Assembly: GCF_963576615.1 (NCBI RefSeq)
Contig: NC_088711.1
Coordinates: 23,654,182 to 23,718,181 of the forward strand
Origin: Watersipora subatra
Lineage: Eukaryota; Bryozoa; Gymnolaemata; Cheilostomatida; Watersiporidae
Direction of reading: 5' to 3'
DNA: 64,000 nt
The position numbers and the translations under genes are program-made. Shown here piece after piece: positions 1,419 to 56,960 of this stretch. Numbering within the stretch: position 1 is the stretch's first letter; each line of letters starts with the position of its first letter. The notes beneath the pieces were generated by a model. It was not told where the DNA came from. It saw only the letters and a program-made list of their open reading frames with translations, and searched no databases.

Positions 1419-2682
1419 ACATCAACCACGAAGCCGAGGTACGTCACAAAGCCATTTCTGAATACAAGAAACGCCTTCGGCAGGTCCTACAGAACCAGCT
1501 CAATGCCAAGAACCAAGTCATGGCAATAAACACCTACACACTGCCAGTAACAAGATATCCAGCAGGCATAATAAAGTGGACTGAGGAAGCCATCAAGGAA
1601 ACAGATATAGCAACTCGTAAACTGCTGACCATGCATGGAGCACTCCACCCAAAATCTGATACTACTAGATTGTATCTTGATAGAAAAGATGGCAGTAGGG
1701 GACTCAAAAGTGTACAGCAGACAGTGAAAGAGGAGGAGTAAAGCATCAAAGCATATGCAGCCTCCATGGCCATCTCAGATAAGTTGCTAGCTGAATTTCA
1801 ATCGGCTGGTCTTACAACGGACCTACGCCCTGATGATGAGGAAATTGACTGGCACACGAAACCTTTTCATGGTGCTTACCACCAACGAATATCTAAGGTT
1901 GGCGATCTTCACCAGACATATATGTGGCTGAACAAAGGAAACCTAACGGCCAATACAGAGTCGCTAATCATGGCAGCCCAGGAGCAAGTGCTCCCAACAA
2001 GGCAACTCCAAACGAAAATCTATCACACTAGAGACGATCCTAGATGCAGACTGTGCAAAGATGCACCTGAGACCATCCAACACATCATCAGTGGATGCAG
2101 GCAGCTAGCAGGGAACGCATACACTGAGCGGCATAATCATGTCGCAGGTATTGTGTATAGAAGTCTATGTGATGAGTATGGCCTTAATAAACCACAACAC
2201 TGGTGGGAAGCTCCTGGTAAGGTCAATGAAAATGACCGCGCTAAGATCCTCTGGGACTTCTACATCCGGACTGACAAGCATGTCCTAGCAAACCAACCAG
2301 ATATAGTGGTGGTAGACAAGGAGAACAAGAGAGCTACTATAATAGATATAGCAGTACCCAATGACTACAATATAGCCAGCAAAGAAAAAGAAAAGGTAGA
2401 GAAATATCTCCCTCTTGGAGAAGAAATCGAAAAATGCTGGAATGTAAGAACAACTGTAATCCCAGTAGTCATTGGGGCACTGGGCGCAATAACACCGGCG
2501 CATAAAATGTGGCTTGCCCAAATACCAACAGCAATCAACTCAGGTGAGTTGCAGAAAAGTGCGCTATTGGGAACAGCTAAGATCTTGAGGCGAGTGCTCA
2601 AACTCCCAGGTCTCTGGTAGGAGACCCGAGTTAGAGCAGAATTTACCACCCATACAGGGTACCCGGGGTGAGGAAACAATTT
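1381..2682 (+). pseudogene. LINE 3' portion: RT thumb, CCHC and restriction-like endonuclease
   Basis: This is the longest LINE copy. It encodes a region typical of the post-RT segment of REL-type LINEs (YKYLGI, INTYTLPVTRYPAGIIKW, RKLLTMHGALHPKS), then CRLCKDAPETIQHIISGC (CCHC knuckle), the endonuclease PD/D block, and the end LKLPGLW. An in-frame TAA at 1739-1741 interrupts it; reading continues in the same frame (SIKAYAASMAISDK) to the natural stop at 2618-2620. Apart from that nonsense codon the frame is open. The element is 5'-truncated at the palindrome and lacks the RT catalytic core. It resembles the R2 superclade in architecture; I cannot assign a clade. Confidence 0.85.
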
Positions 2683-2716
2683 ATATATATATATATATAT
2701 GTATATATATGTATAA
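2683..2716. repeat. TA-rich LINE tail
   Basis: (TA)n with two ATGTATAT interruptions, directly after the LINE 3' end. It is probably the simple-repeat tail of the element. Confidence 0.7.
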
Positions 2717-3585
2717 GTAATTATATGTGAGTATATAAAATATAAGAAATAAATTCGTGGCCCAGCGTCCGCCACAATGTAACATTAACACAGCAGGTTA
2801 GTACCAATTAATTTACTAACAAATAAATATGACAAACAACACTTTTTACCAATTAGATACAACCACAATTATTTTGCACTCAAGTATGAAAACATGAAGC
2901 AAGTCACTAACATAAAACTTGTTTATACAATACAAAAACATAAGCGCCGTGTCGATCTAGTTGTAAACGGCCATGTTGTTAGTTGTTTGAACATCTTTCT
3001 AGGTAATAGCAACAAAAGTTATTTCAGTATTATTTAATATTTTACAACTTATTTTATATTTTAAAATTTTTTACATTAAATTATACATGTATTTTAATTT
3101 TTCAAAAATATTACAACCATATTTCAGCTTTAAAATGATAGTAATATAAGATTGACACTTTATTGGAACATAAAAGCAGAAAAATTTCCTCCGTATTAGG
3201 TAGCGCATTTTCATATGTTGTTGGAAGCACAACAGGAAAGTGAAGTGCAATTAATGCTAGAAAGAATTTGCCTACCACCACAGCACATCATGAATAAGTT
3301 ATCATTTAACTAATTCTCATCCTACCGCTCAGAAATCATCACCAGCTGCCGCAGACAATAACTACTACCACTGTATGTAGGAAAAGGGCACTTCTTCATT
3401 CGGATAATGTGAATAAACTGTGCTGCCTCAACTATTGGCTGGCTTAGTTTTCATAGACTGTATTCATACTTATATTTAAAACATTGTAACTTATGTACAT
3501 TGTACATAATATGTAATCCTGTGAACAGGATAATTGTCTCAAATATAATTAATTTATATATAGCTGTATTATTTGTTTTCGAATA
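2717..3585. other. AT-rich non-coding sequence
   Basis: No ORF, exon-like block or terminal repeat recognised. Several short poly-T and poly-A runs. Confidence 0.5.
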
Positions 3586-10233: not shown

Positions 10234-13200
10234 ATGCTGTGCAGTGAATGTAATCTATATCTGCGCGTCTTGATTTCCTTACTGTACTGTCTTCTCATTA
10301 GCACTGAATCGAAAGATGAGAAACGACATCAACAACAAGCTAAGAAGGTGTCTTCAAACCAGCATCTTTCCACTGGCGACAGCATCAACGATGCTCTTCT
10401 ACAAGTAGGCGACATACGAAAGTATCAGATATGCATGCTGCTTGGAACAGTTGCCTGCTGCATGCTTGCCTCAATGCAGACGCTTGCCTTAGTTTTTACT
10501 CAGGCAGCTATAGACTACAGGTCAGCGATAAACTACACAAGGCTACTGTATGACACAAGGCTTCTTTTGGTTGTTGCTGTTCAATCTGCATTTACAGACT
10601 TTACAGACTGTTAAACTAGTTTTGGGTAGACTTCCGGCTCAGCCTTAGTAGGTAGTAGGTGTGAATCATTTTTTGCAAACAGCCTCAAGAAATATGAATT
10701 AATTTGGTTTAGTTCTGGTTTTAATCTTGTCAATTAGTTTAGTATTTTGCTGATATTATCAACTTACATCTACGGTTCTGACGACAGTGAAATCACTGTT
10801 GTTTACTTCAAAAAGCTGAATGACTTCTCATTACACACTCTTTCATTATTATTTAAACTTTAATTTCAGATATTACTCCTTTCTCATGGTCATGATAGGT
10901 AAAGCAACTCCAATCAAGCAACGTGTAGCAGGTGAAAAATTGCTTTCAGTTGCGAGGCCAAAACACATTCATTTGTTGCAACATATGATATTTTGGTGGT
11001 TTACAGGATTTGTGTATTGTGTAGGACTCCGTATTTCAAACTAGTAGCTGATACTTCAACAACCATTTGATCTCATTGGCAGCTCTTCAACAAACCAGCC
11101 AATAAGATCAAATGTTTCAGTTTTGGCAGTCATCCATTTTCACTCCTTACATGCTTATCCACAGGTGTGCTGATGCTGGGTTTGAGAATTTCAGTGGCAA
11201 GTATCTGGTGGAAAACATGACAGATCAATGCGTGCTTGGAAATACAACTACTGAGTGTTTGAATTTCAAGTACAGTAGCTCAGTCTATGAGAGTACCATA
11301 GTCAGTGAGGTGCGTTCCATTACACTAGCCTCAGTACCATAGTCAGTGAGGTGCGTTTCATTACAATAGCCTCAGTACCATAGTCAGTGAGGTGCGTTCC
11401 ATTACACTAGCCTCAGTACCATAGTCGGTGAAGTGCGTTCCATTACATTAGCCTCATCATCATAATCAGTGAGGTATATTCTATCACACTAGCGTCAGTA
11501 CCATAGTCAGTGAGGTGCATTCCATTACACTAGCCTCAGTACCATAGCCAGTGAGGTGCGTTCCATTACACTAGCCTCAGTACCATAGTCAGTGGGGTGC
11601 GTTCCATTACACTAGCTTCAGTACCATAGTCAGTGAGGTGCGTTCCATTACACTAGCTTCAGTACCATAGTCTGTGAGGTGCGTTCCATTACACTAGCCT
11701 CAGTACCATAGTCAGTGAAGTGCGTTCCATTACACTAGCCTCAGTATCATAATCAGTGAGGTATATTCTATCACACTAGCCTCATGACCACAGTAAGCAA
11801 AGCGCATTCTATTAGACTATTGCGAATGACTAGCACCAGAGTCAGTGAGGTGTGGTTTCATAACACTAGCCTCAGTATCATAGTCACAGAGTTGTACTGC
11901 AATACATTAGCCTTAGCACAGCTATTTGTAGGTCCAATGTGTGAGAATGTTGTCAATCACTTTGCTACCCACAGATAAAAGCTCTGCATAGAAACTATGT
12001 CAAGTTTTTATGACACACGATTCTCCTTGCACAGTCTGTGTACACACTGTGCAAGGAGAATCGTGTGTCTACAGCACACAGTGCGTGTACACACAGCCTC
12101 TCACCTACAGCACACAGTGCGTGTACACACAGCCGCTCACCTACAGCACACAGTGCGTGTACACACAGCCTCTCACCTACAGCACGCAGTGCGTGTACAC
12201 ACAGCCTCTTACTTACAGCACACAGTGCGTGTACACACTGCCTCTCACTTACAGCACACAGTGCGTGTACACACAGCCTCTCACTTACAGCACACAGTGC
12301 GTGTACACACAGCCTCTCACCTACAGCACACAGTGCGTGTACACACAGCCGCTCACCTACAGCACACAGTGTGTGTACACACAGCCTCTCATTTACAGCA
12401 CACAGTGCGTGTACACACAGCCTCTTACTTACAGCACACAGTGCGTGTACACACAGCCTTTCACCTACAGCATACAGTGCGTGTACACACAGCCTCTCAC
12501 CTACAGCACACAGTGCGTGTACACACAGCCTCTCACTCACAGCAAACCTTTTCAATAGACAGAAGTACCTCTAAACCTTGGTAACTAGGCGTCTGCTCCT
12601 TTCAGTTTGATCTGGTATGTTCCAATGTCATATGGAGTACAGTGGCTAACACGATGTTCATGCTCACACGAATACCAGGGGGTTTCATTGTCGGACAAAT
12701 TCTAGACAGGTGAGACTTTAAGTATGCATGTTTGACATTTGTAGAATGTTGCCTATATTATATTACCTCCTATTTCTTATACTTATACAGTTTTATGTTA
12801 TATTATATTATGCTGTAAATGTTATATTATAATATATTATTTTTCTTAATGGCCATGGAGTTTACAACCACTACATTGTTATATTTTATATGGATATTTA
12901 TTATCTAAAAACCAGAATTATTGAATACTATTTGCTTGAAATGTCTTTTTCAACCAGAAGTAACTATTGGCTTAAAGGTTCAGGGGCGGATCTACTGTGG
13001 TGCATATGGTGCAAATGCACCACCATAAATATGACAAAAAATTAAAAAAAAAGATTAAAAATCCATCAAGAATTGAGTAAATTACAATTCATTTCACTGA
13101 GAACTTGCTTTGGAAGGAAATCAACGAAAACGGCCTAGTAGAGCTCGTTATAACAAACTAGTTTTAATAACATTGACCTGAATTTGTTTAGCTTCTAAAC

Positions 13201-16200
13201 AAATGAGAGTGGTCCCAATAAACATCCCCAATTGAGCCACAACTTTTTCAAAAGAATTACTACAAGCAATTTTAAAAGCAAAATGTTTCAAAAGAAAGGT
13301 CAAGAACGAACTTTGGATCATTTCTTTCGACGACAAAACAACAATTCAAAAAAGTATGCCCCAATATGTCTGTTTGATAATAGCATCATTATGTAGCTAA
13401 TACTACGAAACATTTTTTATGGTAGTTTGCAGAAATGATGGCTAATTTCTGCACAGCCAAAACAAATGGCCGTTAAGGTTTTGTGATTGATTTTGTCTTG
13501 ATTTTATTTTATTGCATAAATGTTTGTTAACTTTCTGTTTACATGTAATCGTGATATACATAGTATAAGAAACATTATAAAACACCAATTTAATTAATCA
13601 TATCTAATGTCAATTTTTACCTCTAAACTTGTTGTTTGCTGCAAATAAATGATTACACTTTTTTGGGCTCAAACACACCTCTCCTTCATTCTAAGATGCC
13701 TAAATTTCTAAAGGTTCCCCTAGCGCGGGGCCAAGTAAGGGGGTCGCCCTGCGCACCCCCTCCCACTCTAGATATATCACACAAATTTTGCACCACACAC
13801 TTTTTTTCCTAGATCCGCCCCTGAGGTTGACTTGCAACAAAATTCACATTACAGTTATTTGGTATCAAAAGAATCACCATGTCTAACTCTGTCGTGTTGT
13901 AAGTGCCAAATACATGTATGTGGAAATGTGATTACAAGCTCTTAAAAGCTCAAAAACGAAAAGCCGCCGTAGATTGGAATCTCTTTATTTTGATGACGTA
14001 ACCACGAAATTTGGTTATCGTCTTGTCACATATGTTCTCACGTGAATTGAAAGGCCAATACGAAGCTCAATATAAAACTTATCGTAGTACTAGTTTCGGG
14101 TTTTACCAAAGACCCCGTATCAAATATAGATGCTCGCTGCTTTACAGTTTTGTTTCGGCCTGATGTAATCGGCAAGTCGCAATCTGATCATGTGACCCAA
14201 TACTTCGCAAATAATTTCTGCAGCACTTTTCGATTATCACAAGTGACCAACAGGCTCGTCATGATTATCAGACAATGATTTGTACTCCTTCAAGCTAAGG
14301 CTAAAAAATTAAACGATTTTGTACGGTAAGTTATGTTGTTTAGATACTTTGAACATTCAGTTTATTGACAGCAACTTTATTAGCTGTGTTCATCTTGACA
14401 GTTGTGAACAAAGAGAAGGTATTATGAAAAGGCTATTGTAAAAAAAAGCAGGAAGCTTTCAGAAAGCACAACAAGATAGCTTTTAAAACCATGAAGCTGC
14501 TATTATTACAATACTCCCACTCAGTTACATGGTTTCACCAACAGCCAGTTTGTGACACACACAAAAAAATACAATGATCGTAATCAACGAAAAAGCAAAA
14601 ATATAACAGTATTGTGTTCAGTGGTCAGACAATTAATTAACTCAAGCCCAACATGTCTCTAAATTTGACAAATCGATCACGTGGCAGCGGCTTCGAGAAT
14701 ATGTCAGCGATATTATCATTTGTCGAACAAAACTCGGTACAGACATCACCAGCTTCAATCGCCTCACGAATTTAGTGGTATTTTACATCTATGTGTTTTG
14801 TACGCTTGCTAGCTTTCTGGCTGTTTGCGATCGCTGCAGCTGATTGATTATCTACAAAGATGCTTGTAGAATTAAGTTGCGTGGTTCCAATATCTGAGAA
14901 TAGCTGACGTAACCACATGCACTCAACAACACCATCAAACAACGCAATATATTCTGATTCCGTAGTAGAGAGAGCAACGACTGACTGACGCTTGCTGGAC
15001 CAGCTGATTGGACAACCAGCATTAATGAAGACTGCACCCGATTTCGAGTGCCAGTCAGTGTCGCTCGCATAATCTGCATCTGTGTATCCAACCATTGGTT
15101 TACCTTGCTTTCTAAAATTCAGGCATAAATCCTTGGTGCCCTTGAGGTAGCGTATTACTTGTTTGGCTGCGGTCAAGTGAGTCTGGGTGGGGCAAGCATT
15201 GAACTTGGCTAAAGCTCCCACTGCTTCAGCAATATCTGGACGAGTAGATACGGCAGCATATAGTAGACTTCCTACCATCAATTAATAGAGATTGGGATCT
15301 GCTAATTTGCTTCCATCCTTGTGACTCAGCTTTACATCATATGCTGCCGGAGTTGCGACAGGCTTACAGTTTTCCATGTTGAACTTTTGAATTATTTGTT
15401 TAATGTAAGGCTTCTGACTTAGACGCATAGAATTTTCTCCTCTCTCAATAAGTAATCCCAGACAATGATGAAGCGGTCCGAGATCCGTCATTTTGAAACG
15501 AGACGAGAGAGCCGATTTTAATTCGGTCATCTGAGCACCAGTGTCTGACATTATACACAAGTCATCTACGTAGACACCAATCATCACTTTCTGGTCATTT
15601 TTCCAGCGAATATACACACAGTTGTCAGCGGAGGACTGCATGAAACCTAATGATTTAAGAAATTCATCTAATACCATGTTCCAACATTTAGGCGACTGTT
15701 TAAGTCCATACAGCGAGCGATTAAGTTTGCAGACTAAATTTTCTTTACCCGGCACAACAAAACCCTCTGGCTGTTCCATATACACCTGTACATCTTCTGA
15801 CAGTTTTCCATTCAAAAAAGGCGTTTGTACATCCATTTGGTGTATCATCATACCTCTCTCAACAGCATCGGATAAGAGTGCTCGCAGAGATGTTCTGTGA
15901 ATCACGGGGGCGTATGTTTCATCGTAATCCACCCCAGCCTTTTGTGCATATCCCTTTGCAACAAGTCGAGCTTTGAATCTACTTATAGACCCATCAGACG
16001 AGTGTTTAGCCTTGAAAACCCACTTAGAGCCAATCGCTTTGCGCTCGGGCGGAAGATCAACTAGTTCCCATGTACCATTGTTGATCAGTGATTGATACTC
16101 ATCATTGCTGGCTTTGATCCAGGCATCACGATTTGTGCTAGCCTGTGCTTGCGACAAACTAAGAGGCTCCACAATGTTGATTGCTGAGTGAGCAGAGTGA

Positions 16201-19200
16201 CCAAGGTTTGTGAAATCATCAATACCAAACCGAACAATGGGTTGAGTGGAATGTGGTGATCGCCTATGTGTAACCATCGGTGTTGGAGGAGCCTTTTCAT
16301 TTTTTGATAGGTCAATATTCACCGCTTCAGAGTTGTCTACATTTGGCTTTGACGACTGATTTAGTAAGCCGAGCTTGGTTTCATCAAAGGTGACATCACG
16401 TCTTACCTCTATTTTTGTAGTGATCGGATCGTAGAGTCTGTAGGCTTTAGACCTAAGGTTATACCCCACAAACACCATTGATTCTGCTTTCTCATCAAGT
16501 TTACGTCTCAGCTGATAGGGTATGTGAGCATAGGCTAAACATCCAAAAATTTTCACTTGTCCAAGATCAGGTTTTCTGTTGTTCCATTTTTCATAAGGAG
16601 TTGTATTCCATTCAAGTGCTCGTGTGGGGAGGCGATTACGAATGTATACCGTGGTCGATATTGCCTCTGCCCAGAATGACTTTGGAAGGTGAGATTCAGA
16701 AATTAACGAGCGAGCGGCCTCACAAACCGTACGATTAAATCTCTCAGCACAGCCGTTTTGTTGTGGAGAATAGCGAGTGGTGACTTGGTGATGTATACTT
16801 TGGGCTGAAAGGTAACTCTCAAACTCATTAGATGTATATTCTCCACCACCATCGCTTCTAAGTGTACCTATAGTCTGACCAGTTTGATTTGTCACTAATG
16901 ATTCGTAAGTTCTAAACGCCTGGAACACGCTAGATTTGTCACGTAAAAATTATATCTGCACATGCCTACTAAAATCATCAATAAATGAAACAAAATACTT
17001 GCTACCACCTAAAGATTCATTCTGCATAGGGCCACACACATCCGTATGTACCAATTCGAGAACCCTACTTGATTTAATGCCACGGTCAGTTTGAAATGGA
17101 CGTCGAGACATTTTACCTTTCACGCAAGCTTCACAGACACCTATTTCGCCGATAACATTACAACCATTTTCACACCAATGATTCATGTTTTTGAGGCTAC
17201 TTACGTTTACATGAGCGAGACGTCGATGCCACACTAGGGAGGAGGACGCGACAGCATTAGCAGTATGAATAGCAAACTCGACATCAAGATAATATAGCCT
17301 GTTTACTACAGATCTTGATGCTATCAACATCTTTCTTTGATTCTTAATCCAGCATCTCGAATGTCCAAACTTTACTATATGTCCTTTTTGTGTAGCCGCT
17401 TTTACAGAAAATAGCTTTCCGTGTAGGTCAGGTATGTGTAGTACATTGTAAGGTGTAGCACGTCTAGTTTTATTTTCATGAATTTTTGTTTGCAGCTGAA
17501 CAATACCTTTTCCGACTACTTGAACTTGAGACCCATCGGCAACAACAACGTACTCAGGTGAATCTAGCTTAAAATAATCACAAAATACAGCTTTATTTTT
17601 TGCCATGTGACTGGTAGCACCGCTGTCGATCAGCCATTTTTTAGAGTCAACATCTGTCTCCAATACAGTAAATGCCGATTCATCATCTTTGCTATTATCA
17701 TCGTATGTAGATATTTTGGCCTGGTGTGGATTTGAGTTACTGTTGTAATATCCATGACCTCGTTCTCGGCCGCGAGGCGATTCACGGCTCTGATTATAGT
17801 TGTTTTTAGGACAACCGTTTTGATAATGTTGTAAAGACCCACAGATATAGCAGCCTTTGGATTGTTGCTGACTATGTTTAAAGCGGTTACTTGCTGACAG
17901 TAGAGCAGTGTCAGAGTTCGCTTTAGACCTGACACCACCAGAATTGCTGGCTGGAGTCAGTGCTCTTTGTTCCCTTTTTTGTTCTTCATTAAGCAGTGTT
18001 TGTGTGGCGAACTGTAAAGTTATATCGTCACCGCGAGCCTCGAGTGCAGTCACTACCGTTGAATAGCTTTCCGGGAGGCTTCCAAGTAGAGTCACCACCT
18101 GGTCTTCCTTGCTAATATTAGCCTTAATAGCTGCAAGTTTATCAGTGATAGCTTTCATGTGACGTAGGTGGTCTTCAATTGATGAACCTTTGCTCATAAC
18201 AGTCCTAAAGTACCGTTTCTTGAGAAATAATTTATTCGCCAGTGTATCACATTCAAAGTGAGCTCTGAGCTTGTTCCACGCAACTCCTGGGTCCTCACAT
18301 TCACTGATGAGATAAATAAGACTATCACTCACAGAAAGCACCATGTGGGAAAAAGCTTTGTTTGGCTTCTTTTTGTACTCGGCTTTAGCGGCAGTGTTAG
18401 TATCATCCTCCAGAGTAATGGTTCCATCCACATATCCAAATAAGTCCTTAGCTATGGGTCGGTGTTTGAGTTTGAACTTCCATGTGGCATAGTTATCAGT
18501 TTTCAGCTTATCTATAGTCCAGCCTTTTTCATCCATAGTTCTTTGATAATATTTAATGGGTTGACTGGGCCCATAACCTGTTGTTTAGATACTTTGAACA
18601 TTCAGTTTATTGACAGAAACTTTATTAGCTGTGTTCATCTTGACAGTTGTGAACAAAGAGAAGGTATTATGAAAAGGCTATTGTAACAAAAAGCAGAAAG
18701 CTTTCAGAAAGCACAACGAGATAGCTTTTAAAACCATGAAGCTGCTATTATTACAATAAGTTATAAGATATCACTGCTAAAAGTGACAGCATTACAAGGA
18801 CGGTAAAAAATATGCGTAAGAACAATAGACATAGTTTTATTGAATGCGTGAAGTATATTTGTGAAAATATTTCGACGAATAAGGTTGCAAGAAAGTGTAA
18901 ACAGAAACCATCTCTCACAACTACATCACATTTGAGCCGTTTTGGAAAGGGAATCCAAACTACGGCGGTCTCGTGTGGCTGCGATTTTCTGTTCGTTTTT
19001 TAGCTTTTAAGAGCTTGTAATCACCTTTCCACATATTTTGCACCTACAACACAACAGAGTAAGACATGGTAAATATTTTCATATCAAATAATGGTCATAT
19101 GAATTTTGTTGCCAGTCAACCTTTAAGAATGGTGAATTAGTAAGCATCACTGTTGAGGACATCAGGAATTATTACCAATTTGTTGGCATGCGCACGGCTG

Positions 19201-39075: not shown

Positions 39076-39114
39076 GACAAAGGTGAACTTACTCCGGTAT
39101 TGATACCTCCTTAA

Positions 39115-39993
39115 AGGTTGACTTGCAACAAAATTCACATTGCATTTATTTGGTATCAAAAGATTCACCATGTCTTACTCTGTTGTGTTGTAGGTGCAAA
39201 ATATGTGGAAATGCGATTACAAGCTCTTAAAAGCTCAAAAACGAAAAGCCGTCGTAGATTGGAATCTGTTTATTTATCTGACGTATTCATTACAGTATGG
39301 TTATTGTCTTGTCACGTGATGTTCTCACGTGAATTGAAAGGCCAATAAAAAGCTCAATATAAAACTTATCGTAGCACTAGTTTATGACAAACACTTCGGG
39401 TTTTACCGAAGATCCCATATCAAATATAGATGCCCGCTACTTTACAGTTTTGTTTCGGCTTGATCAAATCATCAAGTCATAATTTGATCATGTGACCCAA
39501 TACTGCGCAAATAGTTTTTGCAGCACTTTTCGATTATCACAGGTGACCAACAGGCTCGTCATGATTATCAGACAATGATATGTACTCCTTCGAGGTAAAG
39601 TTAAAAAATTAAGTAAATTTTTATGGTAAGTTATAAAATATCACAGCTAAAAGTGACAGCATTACAATGACGATAAAACTGATGTGTAAGAGCAATAGAC
39701 ATGGTTTTATTGAATGAGTGAAGTATATTTGTGAAAATATTTCGACGAATAAGGTTGCATGAAAGTGTAAACAGAAACCATCTCTCACGACTACATCACA
39801 TTTGAGCCGTTTTGGAAAGAGAATCCAAACTTCGGCGGTCTCTTGTGGCTGCAATTAACTGTTCGTTGTTTTAGCTTTTAAGAGCTTGTAATCACATTCC
39901 CACATATTTTGCACCTACAACACAACAGAGTAAGACATGGTGAATCTTTTAATATCAAATAACTGTAATGTGGATTTTGTTGCAAGTCAACCT
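39115..39993. mobile_element. TTAA-flanked MITE family 1, uninterrupted copy
   Basis: TTAA at 39111-39114 and 39994-39997. 879 bp with about 125-bp TIRs (AGGTTGACTTGCAACA...). Segment C shows the unoccupied site tacctcattaagacc near 63790; here an extra TTAA follows the right end. Best reference copy for the family. Confidence 0.9.
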
Positions 39994-39997
39994 TTAA

Positions 39998-44228: not shown

Positions 44229-47200
44229 ATGTCTTCAAACGAGCATCTTTCCACCGGTGACAGCATCAACGATGCTCTTCTACAAGTAGGCGACATACGA
44301 AAGTATCAGATATGCATGCTGCTTGGAACAGCTGCCTGCTGCATGCTTACCTCAATGCAGTCGCTTGTCCTAGTTTTCACTCAGGCAGACATGGACTACA
44401 GGTCAGTGATAAACTACACAAGGCTATTGTACAACACAGGCTTATTTTGGTTGTTGCTGATCAATCTGTATTTACAGACTTTACAGACTGTTCAACTAGT
44501 TTTGGGTAAACTTCCAGCTCAGCCTTAATAGGTAATAAACTAATAGGTATGAATCCCTTTATTGCACAACATGAAGGGATATGAATTATATTGGTTTAGT
44601 TCTGGTTTTATTCTTGTCAATTAAGTATTTTGCTGATATTATCAACTTAAATTGAGTCTGCAGTTCTGATGAGAGTGAAAGCACTGCTGTTTGCTACGAG
44701 AACCTGAATGACTATGACTTCTCATTACGTAGTCTCTCATTATTTTTAAACTCTTGTTGCTGCTGTCTTTACGATCTTGAAAGGTAAAGCAACTCCAATC
44801 AAGTAATGTGTATCAGGGGAAAATTGCTTTCAACTCCAAAGTCAAAACACGTTCATGCGTTACGGCAAAGGATATTTTGGTGATTTGCCAACAGGATTTG
44901 TGAATTGTGTAGGACTCGCCTGTTTGCGATGACTCTTCAAACTAGCAGCTAAATATAAACCAGCCAATGAGTTGAAATGTTTCAGGTGTGGCAGTCATCT
45001 CTTTTCACTCCTTACATGCTTATCCACAGGTGTGCTGATGCTGGGTTTGAGAATTTCAGTGGCAAGTATCTGGTGGAAAACATGACAGATCAATGCGTGC
45101 TTGGAAATACAACTACTGAGTGTTTGAATTTCAAGTACAGTAGCTCAGTCTATGAGAGTACCATAGTCAGTGAGGTGCGTTCCATTACACTAGCCTCAGT
45201 ACCATAGTCAGTGAGGTGCGTTTCATTACAATAGCCTCAGTACCATAGTCAGTGAGGTGCGTTCCATTACACTAGCCTCAGTACCATAGTCGGTGAAGTG
45301 CGTTCCATTACATTAGCCTCATCATCATAATCAGTGAGGTATATTCTATCACACTAGCGTCAGTACCATAGTCAGTGAGGTGCGTTCCATTACACTAGCC
45401 TCAGTACCATAGTCAGTGAGGTGCGTTTCATTACAATAGCCTCAGTACCATAGTCAGTGAGGTGCGTTCCATTACACTAGCCTCAGTACCATAGTCGGTG
45501 AAGTGCGTTCCATTACATTAGCCTCATCATCATAATCAGTGAGGTATATTCTATCACACTAGCGTCAGTACCATAGTCAGTGAGGTGCATTCCATTACAC
45601 TAGCCTCAGTACCATAGCCAGTGAGGTGCGTTCCATTACACTAGCCTCAGTACCATAGTCAGTGGGGTGCGTTCCATTACACTAGCTTCAGTACCATAGT
45701 CAGTGAGGTGCGTTCCATTACACTAGCTTCAGTACCATAGTCTGTGAGGTGCGTTCCATTACACTAGCCTCAGTACCATAGTCAGTGAAGTGCGTTCCAT
45801 TACACTAGCCTCAGTATCATAGTCAGTGAGGTGCGTTCCATTACACTAGCCTCAGTACCATTGTCAGTGAGGTGCGTTCCATTACACTAGCCTCAGCACC
45901 ATAGTCAGTGAGGCGCGTTCCATTACACTAGCCTCAGTACCATAGTCAGTGAGGTGCATTTCATTACACTAGGCTCAGTACCATAGTCAGTGGGGTGCGT
46001 TCCATTACACTAGCCTCAGTACCATAGTCAGTGAGGTGCAAACTATTACACTAGCCTCAGTACCATAGTCAGTGAGGTGCGTTCTATAAGCCCGCTGCGA
46101 ATGACTAGCACCAGTGTCAGTGAGGTGGGGTTTCATAACACTACCCTCAGTATCATAGCCACAGAATTGCACTGCAATACATTAGCCTGAGCACAGCTAT
46201 TTGTAGGTCCAACGTGCGAGAATGTTGTCGATCAGTTTGCTAGTCACAGATAGAAGCTCTGCATAGAAACTATGTCAAGTTTTTATGACACACGATTCTC
46301 CTTACACAGTCTGTGTACAACCGGCCTCCTACCTAAAGCAGACATTTTCAATAGACAGAAGTACCTCTAATAAACCTTGGTAACTAGGCATCTGTTTTTT
46401 TCAGTTTGATCTGGTATGTTCCAATGTCATATGGAGTACAGTGGCTAATACGCTGTTCCTGCTCACACGAATACCCGGTGGTGTCATTGTCGGACAAATT
46501 CTAGACAGGTGAGACTTCAATTATGCATATATGGCATTTTTAGAATGTTATATTACCTCTTATTTCTATTATATTAAACCATATTATATTCATAGAGTAA
46601 TACGCTATATTACATTTTGTTGTACACGTTACAGTATATTATTTTGCTTAATGGCCATGCATTTTGCAACCACTGCATTGTTATATTTTATATGGATACT
46701 AGGTGAATATTGGGCGTTTCTCGGGTAATAAAAGTCTCTGCACAGAAATTTTTTTTTATTTAACATATAACAACAGTTACCATTTTAACTTTCAAACTTC
46801 ATATCATGAGGAAATGCTTTGTGCAAGTCAAATAAATTAAAAAACAAAATAAAAAAACTATAAAAGTGTTTAAATATAAATGGGAAATAATTAGCAAGCA
46901 ATAGCTAAATTAAGTCTGCTTTTTTACGATTACAATAAAAAATGTTTTGGTAATGACACAATTAATATGAACTGAAAAAAAATAAAAATTAAAATCCTGA
47001 ATATGTTGAATTAATAATAACAATGTGTGCATAGAAGTGTGTGTATAGAAAAAGTTATTGTTCCAGCAGAAGCTATTCGTCAAAACATTGAATACGATGA
47101 TACTGGTACCTCTCGATACTGGTACAAATGTAAAAATGGGATATCGGATTTTCTTTGTCTGGTAATTTGGCTGATCGGACAAAAAGAGAGAGAATGTAGA

Positions 47201-55310: not shown

Positions 55311-56960
55311 ATATCAGAGCCTATTACCTCCCAAATGCAGGAAGACAATATGCATTGTACCATTGGCTGGTGTCTAATGTCACTAAGGCAAATGCAAGTA
55401 TTACAGCTTTTCACAAAGTTCTCAATGTCATTACTGACACCAGGCCACCAAATGTAGGCCTGCGGACGGCGACTACATTTTGAAATACCTTGGTGACCTT
55501 CATGGCATTTTGCTAAACACAACTCCCGCAAGGGTTCCGGGATGAAAATACGAGAGTCATACATTATTAACCCATTGCACAAGGTCAAATTATGTTTAAA
55601 CGTATAAAATTTTGACATCTCATTACTGAACGATTGCATAGGAGTTCTCCAATTATTTTTAATATGACAAAGGAGCTCTTTACTAACATTATCAGTTTTC
55701 ATAGCATTTCTAATCTTGTTTTCACATTCTTCTGTATCTATCAAAGATGCTATAATAGCCCCTACCTATGCATCGATTTCCCTACTTTTGTTGAGGTCTA
55801 GAAAATCATAATTGCTGTTAGGACGACTCAATGAGTCTGTTAAAGGTTGACTTGCAATAAAATTCACATTACAGTTATTTGGTATCAAAAGATTTAACAT
55901 GTCTTACTCTGTTGTTTTGTAGGCGCAAAATACGTATGTGGAAAGGTGATTACAAGCTCTTAAAAGCTCAAAAACTAACAGTTAATCACATCCACACGAG
56001 ACCGCCAAAGTTTGGATTCTCTTTCCAAAACGGCTTAAATGTGATGCAGTTGTGAGAGATGGTTTCTGTTTACACTTTCATGCAACTTTATTCGTCGAAC
56101 TATTTTCACAAATATACTTCACGCATTCAATAAAACCATGTCTATTGTTCTTACGCCTCTGTTTTATCGTCATCGTAATGCTGTCACTTTTAGCAGTGAT
56201 ATATTATAAGTTATAACTTACCATAAAAATTTGTCTAATTTTTGAACCTTACCTCGAAAGAGTACATATCATTGTCTGATAATCATGATGAGCCTTTTGG
56301 TCACCTGTGATAATCAAAAAGTGCTGCAAAATTATTTGCGAAGTATTGAGTCACATGATCAGATCACGACTTGCCGATTAGACCAGGCCAAAACAAAACT
56401 GTAAAGTAGCGAGCATCTATATTTGATACGGGGTCTTCGGTAAAACTTGAAGTGCTTGTCATAAACTAGTGCTACGATAAGTTTTATATTGAGCTTTTTA
56501 TTGGCCTTTCAATTCACGTGAGAACATACGTGACAAGACAATAACCAAATTTTTTGGCTACGTCATCGAAATCAAGAGATTCCAATCTACGGCGGCTTTT
56601 CGTCTTTGAGCCTTGAAAAGAGCATATAATCACATTTCCACATATTTTGCACTTACAACACAGCAGAGTAAGACATGGTGAATCTTTTGATACCAAATAA
56701 CTGTAATGTGAATTTTATTGCAAGTCAACCTTTAAACACATATTGACGCTTGGTGTATGAAATATGTTGGGGTCATACCTCATCAACTGTAGCCTAAAAC
56801 ATTGAACTCTTACTGGCAGATTGGCCATCTTTTTTATTCAAGATAAGCACTAATGGCTTTTTGCCTGTCTCGATTTCAATGTTACATCCAACCAAATAAA
56901 AATCAAATTTCTGACAAGCCCAAGTGATGGCCAATAGTAGAGTAGGAGTGCATCAAAAAG
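55311..56960 (-). pseudogene. Ty3/gypsy RNase H to integrase fragment, split by a TTAA MITE
   Basis: The minus strand from 56960 reads LAITWACQKFDFYLVG, IEIETGKKPLVLILNKKDG, a stop, and a degenerate YDPNIFHTPSV (gypsy RNase H and connection). After the MITE (55844-56731) it resumes as DSLSRPNSNYDFLDL, then a zinc-binding integrase region: H-X3-H (CHEGHQGISKC), YIWWPGVSNDIENFV and C-X2-C (CNTC). The integrase core is missing. At least two stops. Ty3/gypsy elements copy and integrate themselves; this is an inactive remnant. Confidence 0.8.
55844..56731. mobile_element. TTAA-flanked MITE family 1, third copy
   Basis: TTAA at 55840-55843 and 56732-56735. 888 bp, long TIRs starting AGGTTGACTTGCAATA. 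Inserted in the gypsy remnant; the gypsy reading frame resumes across it. Confidence 0.9.

Follow-up and report, generated by a model that had tools for sequence, protein, structure and literature searches.

The 41-bp minisatellite at the junction of exon 2 and intron 2 in a cluster of SLC22-like genes was confirmed to be an array derived from that junction. The array is likelier to be tolerated than regulatory, with tuning by its length a possibility; it probably has little effect on output, the spliceosome mostly taking the first donor. The window, i.e., the whole stretch of DNA analyzed, corresponds to C4:23654182-23718181 (64 kb) in a 784-Mb genome, and its features are listed in Table 1 together with junction arrays found elsewhere in the genome.

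Table 1. Coordinates of the SLC22-like genes, their arrays, and other junction arrays (window positions unless a locus or contig is given)
Feature	Position	Strand	Basis
SLC22-like gene copy 1, nine coding exons, 533 codons	10348..27841	+	Splice-site gene model
Block of 615 bp spanning the intron 1 end, exon 2, and 11 units plus a few bases, putative conversion tract	11137..11751	+	Comparison of copies 1 and 2
Coding exon 2, copy 1; the repeat unit takes its exonic part from the final 18 bases (11292-11309)	11165..11309	+	Splice-site gene model
Regular units, copy 1 (n = 12, 41 bp each), from the exon 2-intron 2 junction	11292..11783	+	TRF, cutting by unit, donor count
Degenerate units, copy 1 (n = 3), 3' end of array	11784..11914	+	Cutting by unit, comparison of copies
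Coding exon 3, copy 1 (FDLVC...), acceptor side of intron 2	12606..12709	+	Gene model
SLC22-like gene copy 2, nine coding exons, 533 codons	44229..52401	+	Gene model, domain and structure-chain matches
Coding exon 2, copy 2	45030..45174	+	Gene model
Array, copy 2, 23 junction-derived units	45157..46102	+	TRF, cutting by unit, donor count
Units 6 to 10, copy 2, exact duplicate of units 1 to 5 (45157-45361)	45362..45566	+	Cutting by unit, comparison
Coding exon 3, copy 2	46405..46508	+	Gene model
L030, presumably SLC2A13-like, 18-bp minisatellite across donor	1725-1883 in L030, C4:33.55 Mb		Next exon found, fits at phase 1
L041 and L043, P450 paralogs, 40-bp array, 6.0 and 11.6 copies	L041 1358-1597, L043 1094-1556, C1:77.5 Mb		
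L061 and L059, P450 paralogs, 45-bp array, 5.4 and 3.0 copies	L061 1277-1518, L059 1377-1512, C3:13.5 Mb		
L072, kinase, 45-bp unit starting at GTGAGT, exonic bases not repeated	C4:13425422-13426504		
L088, MAP3K-like kinase, donor, open-frame unit of 111 bp that includes the HRDIK coding end	C1:52825655-52826506		

Besides the two genes in the window, a third copy lies just beyond its end, with exon 1 at 65656, exon 2 at 66756-66900, and exon 3 at 70605 on the scale of the window. All three copies have nine coding exons, 533 codons, and zero internal stops; exon ends were set at GT/AG by hand-made patterns, so that canonical sites are partly built into the models while the common open frame is not. 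Pairwise dN/dS values of the three genes were 0.33, 0.28, and 0.21, and three open frames under such values imply that the mRNA spliced from the first donor is produced and is of consequence. The copy 2 protein matched Sugar_tr (E value of 8.7e-25), and its best structure chain was SLC22A6 (E value of 9.6e-44, query residues 86 to 524 of 533), the full-length match to SLC22 proteins expected of a family member. Across the exon 2-exon 3 junction, STIVTEWNLVC of SLC22A6 aligns with STIVSEFDLVC of copy 2. At position 10348, copy 1 reads GTG where the other two copies have their start ATG, and an in-frame ATG is present farther upstream.

Several other elements were identified around these genes. 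Intron 3 of copy 1 (13824-19126) contains a copia-type long terminal repeat (LTR) retrotransposon (14334-18758), with 180-bp direct repeats that are 97.8% alike and with RVT_2 and copia gag domains, nested in an approximately 900-bp element with inverted ends that recurs at 39111-39997 and 55840-56735. A direct repeat of approximately 559 bp, 96.6% alike, occupies 496-1053 and 2144-2700, and its two open frames gave zf-RVT matches under the curated cutoff. No RNA family at gathering score and no tRNA was found in the 64-kb window. Searches for COX1 and, with no positive control, for molluscan hemocyanin yielded no match.

Using TRF, arrays with a period of 41 were identified in copy 1 (11292-11886; 14.3 copies, score of 789) and in copy 2 (45157-46084; 22.6 copies, score of 1513). 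Unit 1 of both copies is AGTACCATAGTCAGTGAG|GTGCGTTCCATTACACTAGCCTC, in which the final six codons of exon 2 (AGT ACC ATA GTC AGT GAG, encoding STIVSE; 18 bases) are followed by 23 bases of intron 2. The initial annotation had described the repeat as the last 18 bases of the exon plus the first 23 of the intron, and the gene models and the cutting of the array by unit bear this out. Its counts of about 12 units in copy 1 and about 23 in copy 2 also held: copy 1 carries 12 regular and three degenerate units, and copy 2 carries 22 regular units (45157-46058), then a 23rd, 44 bases long as cut by the parser, in which the junction is retained, and two degenerate units extending to 46189. In copy 3 the array comprises six units (66883-67128, on the scale of the window). 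Intron 2 of this copy is longer and contains a piece of the array 3' end near 70300; the copy 1 tract from 11827 on is homologous to this piece as well as to the end of the copy 2 array. The copy 3 array thus seems to have been split by an insertion.

A second minisatellite is present in intron 2 of copy 1 (12069-12544, 36 bp, 13.2 copies), beside an inverted repeat at about 12010-12075 that was seen by eye; TRF lists no 36-bp period in introns 2 of copies 2 and 3. The 41-bp unit was also considered as a mobile or satellite family, and this was rejected, as at least 22 matches were obtained in the genome and every one fell in the gene cluster at C4:23.665-23.725 Mb, in a search that scored the best candidates and skipped very common words and so is not proof of rarity. 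An assembly artifact, in the array itself or in its length, is very improbable. Repeats are hard to assemble and the exact 205-bp duplication in copy 2 could represent a joining error, but the arrays of all three genes contain ordered unit variants, some shared and some private, and similar arrays exist elsewhere in the genome.

A distant SLC22 paralog on the same contig (C4:14.05 Mb) has an exon 2 that ends STAVSE|GTATGT at the same phase-0 junction, followed by a 752-base intron in which TRF detects a TA run only and no 41-bp array. As the junction is present there without the array, the exon end is older than the array, which agrees with the claim that the array sprang from the junction. 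Comparison of the copies shows more recent turnover. Positions 11137 to 11751 of copy 1 are identical to 45002 to 45821 of copy 2, save for the 205-bp duplication in the latter. Between these copies exon 2 matches at 145/145 positions, and identity is 82.1% in intron 1 and 87.1% in the tract that follows the array; copy 3 departs from the two at 6/145 exon 2 positions. The pattern points to conversion, in which exon 2 and eleven units were homogenized together in copies 1 and 2 not long ago. By the same comparison, copy 2 gained, or copy 1 lost, five units, among them a flawless duplicate of the authentic junction; the exact duplication in copy 2 points to recent growth. The exonic AGT of copy 3 has become AAT (S to N) in unit 1 and also in units 4 and 5, which again indicates that the end of the coding exon and the array have exchanged sequence.

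The array was said to offer many near-identical donors, a description that fits roughly half of the units but not the rest. With the authentic donor counted, the 9-mer GAGGTGCGT (GAG|GTGCGT) is found in 6/12 units of copy 1, 12/23 of copy 2, and 1/6 of copy 3, and the remaining units have the forms GTGCAT, GTATAT, GAAGTGCGT, GGGGTGCGT, and GTGCAA, with one GC. Beyond unit 1 of copy 3, none of the five units retains the 9-mer, and all five have lost +5G. When the later regular units of the three copies are pooled, excluding unit 23 of copy 2, GT is kept in 36/37, GT with +5G in 23/37, and the whole 9-mer in 15/37. Candidate donors in introns 2 were scored with a weight matrix of human donors and a cutoff of 4.0. 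No 9-mer other than GAGGTGCGT reached this score in intron 2 of either copy 1 or copy 2; base-shuffled versions of these introns gave means of 0.5 and 0.6 sites, respectively (maxima of 5 and 3). Intron 2 of copy 3 has three extra sites, scoring 4.2 to 5.5, outside the array, and its shuffles average 2.6.

That use of a later donor leads to a frame soon ending in TAG was upheld by reading on from exon 2, which gives VRSITLASVP and then TAG in all three genes. Whichever later donor is used, the retained stretch opens with the intron part of unit 1, giving ten codons and then the stop. With a unit of 41 bases only every third donor keeps the frame, and such donors provide no rescue because the TAG comes within the retained stretch.

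With duplex energies to U1 of -6.1 for GAGGTGCGT and -5.4 for GAGGTGCAT, the array places many U1-like sites side by side, and binding of multiple U1 snRNPs could suppress early intronic polyadenylation or alter skipping of a neighboring exon. Skipping of the next exon did rise with repeat length in ABCA7, according to the available text of PMC5954066. The array donors are, however, of middling strength among the donors of these genes, and nothing in the sequence requires such a function, which we regard as quite improbable. Less credible still, to the point of being scarcely conceivable, is zero-length recursive splicing, in which every TGAG|GTGCGT would serve as both acceptor and donor and the array would be removed stepwise. 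The unit consensus does have AG immediately 5' of GT, but the pyrimidine fraction before the AG is 0.50 in the one unit checked, with further AGs included; the corresponding fractions are 0.65 for the acceptor of exon 3 and 0.75 for that of exon 2. Masking of the later donors by hairpins was examined because TGAGG and CCTCA in each unit could pair, with the first donor predicted to be more accessible than the others, and was rejected, as folding is no better than that of shuffles: z-scores were -0.62 for six copy 1 units and -0.11 for one unit. A 68-base stretch over the first junction gave a z-score of -1.58, a weak signal equaled by 16/200 shuffles. By RNA folding no donor is open, the first included, the 9-base unpaired probability being at most 0.07.

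The picture given by mutations in the later donors is mixed, with neither excess nor lack by distinct mutations and higher variation by distinct units. Ten of 43 distinct mutations fell in the nine donor positions, compared with 9.4 expected (P = 0.85). Over 21 distinct units, the donor positions varied more, with 2.8 per position versus 1.6 elsewhere. This excess is chiefly +5 G to A, seen in 9/21 distinct units, six of which keep +4 C and hence the CpG, and mutation pressure at CpG may be enough to account for it.

These data bear on a rheostat, in which more units would mean more poison donors, more transcripts ending at TAG, and less transporter. The unchanged 9-mer in 5/11 (copy 1) and 10/21 (copy 2) later regular units agrees with such a device, as do the TAG after ten codons in three genes alike, the higher variation per unit at donor positions, and, from the available text of PMC5954066, the lower expression that accompanies longer ABCA7 alleles. 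Set against this, the distinct mutations show no concentration in the donor, the frames are open in genes with 6, 12, and 23 units alike, and the ABCA7 isoform with a retained unit is described in that text as independent of length. A rheostat is therefore unlikely, although it is the best placed of the alternatives considered here.

Tolerance of the array is favored by the lack of concentration of distinct mutations in the later donors (10/43 versus 9.4), by loss of the 9-mer in 5/5 later units of copy 3, by an exon 2 that is identical at 145/145 positions inside the 615-bp block, by the outgroup junction without an array, and by the lancelet mirages, which reportedly leave splicing undisturbed (PMC3087553; PMC3902484). 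Counted against it are the 15/37 later units that match the first donor letter for letter and the greater variation of donor positions per distinct unit (2.8 versus 1.6), which is also expected from selection against later donors. SRSF1-type factors are described, in the part of PMC5585400 available, as able to favor the intron-proximal of two donors, a choice that would yield dead transcripts here. Also weighing against tolerance are the abundant ABCA7 isoforms besides unit retention (exon 19 skipping and lower expression; PMC5954066) and the transcripts with the repeat kept for 66% of intron changes in human segmental duplicates (PMC2812944). Products of the first donor appear to be made and selected, because the three genes keep nine-exon open frames at dN/dS values of 0.21 to 0.33.

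We suggest that the minisatellite began as a tandem duplication over the exon 2-intron 2 junction before the three SLC22 genes separated. As the sequence shows, the array has since changed in length, plausibly by unequal exchange, and has been copied between genes along with exon 2. The first donor would win because it alone belongs to a normal exon of 145 bases that brings an acceptor and exonic signals of its own; the later donors sit in intron sequence and would seldom be used. Occasional use of one would add 10 residues before the TAG seen in all three genes, and such transcripts would presumably undergo nonsense-mediated decay. The most visible consequence of the array is thus probably the exchange that takes place there, by which exon 2 stays alike in the first two copies.

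Other junction arrays were sought in an exon-locus sample of 59 loci, made up of 9 PF00083, 30 PF00067, and 20 PF00069 matches. The nine PF00083 matches came from the 9 of 95 first-look candidates that were scored; the PF00067 loci are the best 30 of 101 matches, with 1,500-base flanks; and the 20 PF00069 loci, with 300-base flanks, were chosen nonrandomly from 142 matches among the better ones without internal stops. An array was present within 60 bases of the match in 11/59 loci, seven of which were kept as including or starting at a splice junction; L042, L060, L068, and L076 were left out of the count, as the junction is not inside the array. The seven loci represent five independent events when paralog pairs are counted once, with exon ends judged, except for L030, from reading frame and GT without the next exon.

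The array in L030, a gene that we take to be SLC2A13-like and whose PDB matches are sugar transporters, contains eight donors, GAG|GTAGGT or GAG|GTAAGT, all in phase 1 and open, and each later one would add GRLKHR in frame. In L041 and L043, the array overlaps the 5' end of the exon coding for GDYTVPKGT or GDYSVPKGT, so that the 5' side of the exon is involved, at an approximate acceptor position. The array of L059 and L061 crosses the donor after ..LEPCAETP, and the adjoining paralog L062 has the exon end without an array. Near the junction in L068 (C9:62.70 Mb), an 84-bp array of 17.6 copies (2025-3504) starts a few bases into a P450 intron, leaving the junction outside.

The flanks, totaling 129 kb, contained 45 arrays with a mean period of 34 (period of 15 to 150, at least 2.5 copies). 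Random seeding would place approximately 1.4 arrays on 118 junctions, and five or more would have a Poisson P of 0.014, a rough estimate for a nonrandom sample in which array density differs among the three sets (one per 9,000, 2,647, and 1,500 bases), other exons lie in the flanks, and exon ends are approximated by match ends. Junction arrays are, at least, not depleted in this genome, and they seem to be widely tolerated, given that 7/59 loci (five events) carry one at a splice junction. Minisatellites are common in the genome generally: five 6-kb stretches at round positions held six arrays with at least five copies, and 114 kb around the SLC22 cluster held 16. It is conceivable, though distinctly doubtful, that minisatellite birth at splice junctions is frequent enough for a noticeable share of exons to have competing splice sites, with array length setting the productive fraction where units bring a frameshift or stop, as in SLC22, or protein length where they are an open multiple of three, as with the 18-bp SLC2A13-like and 111-bp MAP3K-like units. 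If true, junction arrays would act as a rapid and heritable control over many genes simultaneously.

The SLC22 array is a further case of an already known phenomenon, exemplified by the mirages of lancelets and the human ABCA7 variable-number tandem repeat (VNTR). Mirages, as the available portions of PMC3087553 and PMC3902484 describe them, are lancelet tandem repeats across exon-intron boundaries in Adh3, the globins BflGb6 and BflGb9, and troponin C; PGBD5 presents a comparable example. Their units range from 10 to approximately 160 bp, are unstable in length, and are found at either intron end, and regular splicing is reportedly undisturbed (PMC3087553; PMC3902484). In line with the portion of PMC3087553 available, the SLC22 repeat spans a boundary, with a 41-bp unit that contains the exon-intron junction; many units keep the splice signal (GT in 36/37, the whole 9-mer in 15/37); and length is unstable, with 6, 12, and 23 units in three paralogs and an exact duplication of five units in copy 2. 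The constrained open frames of the three genes would be indirect evidence that regular splicing is spared here as well. Unlike the lancelet cases, it lies in a different gene and probably a different phylum, and three neighboring paralogs carry it. Mirages thus probably reach beyond lancelets.

In human ABCA7, the intron 18 VNTR has a 25-bp unit that starts at the exon 18 donor and is present in 23.7 reference copies (PMC5954066, in the text available, as for the following figures). One retained unit causes a frameshift and a premature stop; unit retention (approximately 2%) did not vary with VNTR length; and with increasing length exon 19 skipping, which ranges from 12 to 45% by tissue, rises and total expression falls (PMC5954066). 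Of the figures of 14% and 2% given there, we take the former as exon 18 alternative splicing and the latter as unit retention (PMC5954066). A retained SLC22 unit likewise gives a premature stop, with VRSITLASVP and TAG in three genes. The ABCA7 unit begins at GT, whereas the SLC22 unit also repeats 18 exonic bases, and changes in expression and in exon skipping have been measured for ABCA7, whereas any such effect of the SLC22 array is hypothetical.

Variable internal tandem repeats at exon-intron boundaries are also described in human segmental duplicates, where, in the available part of the source, a transcript keeping the repeat was supported for 66% of the intron changes (PMC2812944). Like the SLC22 array, those repeats are minisatellites that border exons of recently duplicated genes, and some contain cryptic splice sites, as far as that part describes them; they are tied there to the formation of new introns, whereas the SLC22 intron predates its array. 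Intron gain by tandem duplication of AGGT is known as the Rogers model (named in the available text of PMC3087553), with potato RdRp as an example (PMC4974935, in part). Here, too, a stretch bearing AG|GT was tandemly duplicated, as in potato RdRp by the portion of PMC4974935 available, but unlike in the Rogers model no new intron was made: the outgroup paralog already has the same intron, which was therefore not absent before the duplication.

With the donor context present 6, 12, and 23 times, the three closely related genes provide a natural dose series, in which copy 3 has a single unchanged donor. This series addresses an old question, namely, how the spliceosome chooses among many equal 5' splice sites. 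The arrays also show the end of a coding exon drawn into minisatellite turnover and conversion, and the further junction arrays suggest that splicing in this genome often tolerates them.
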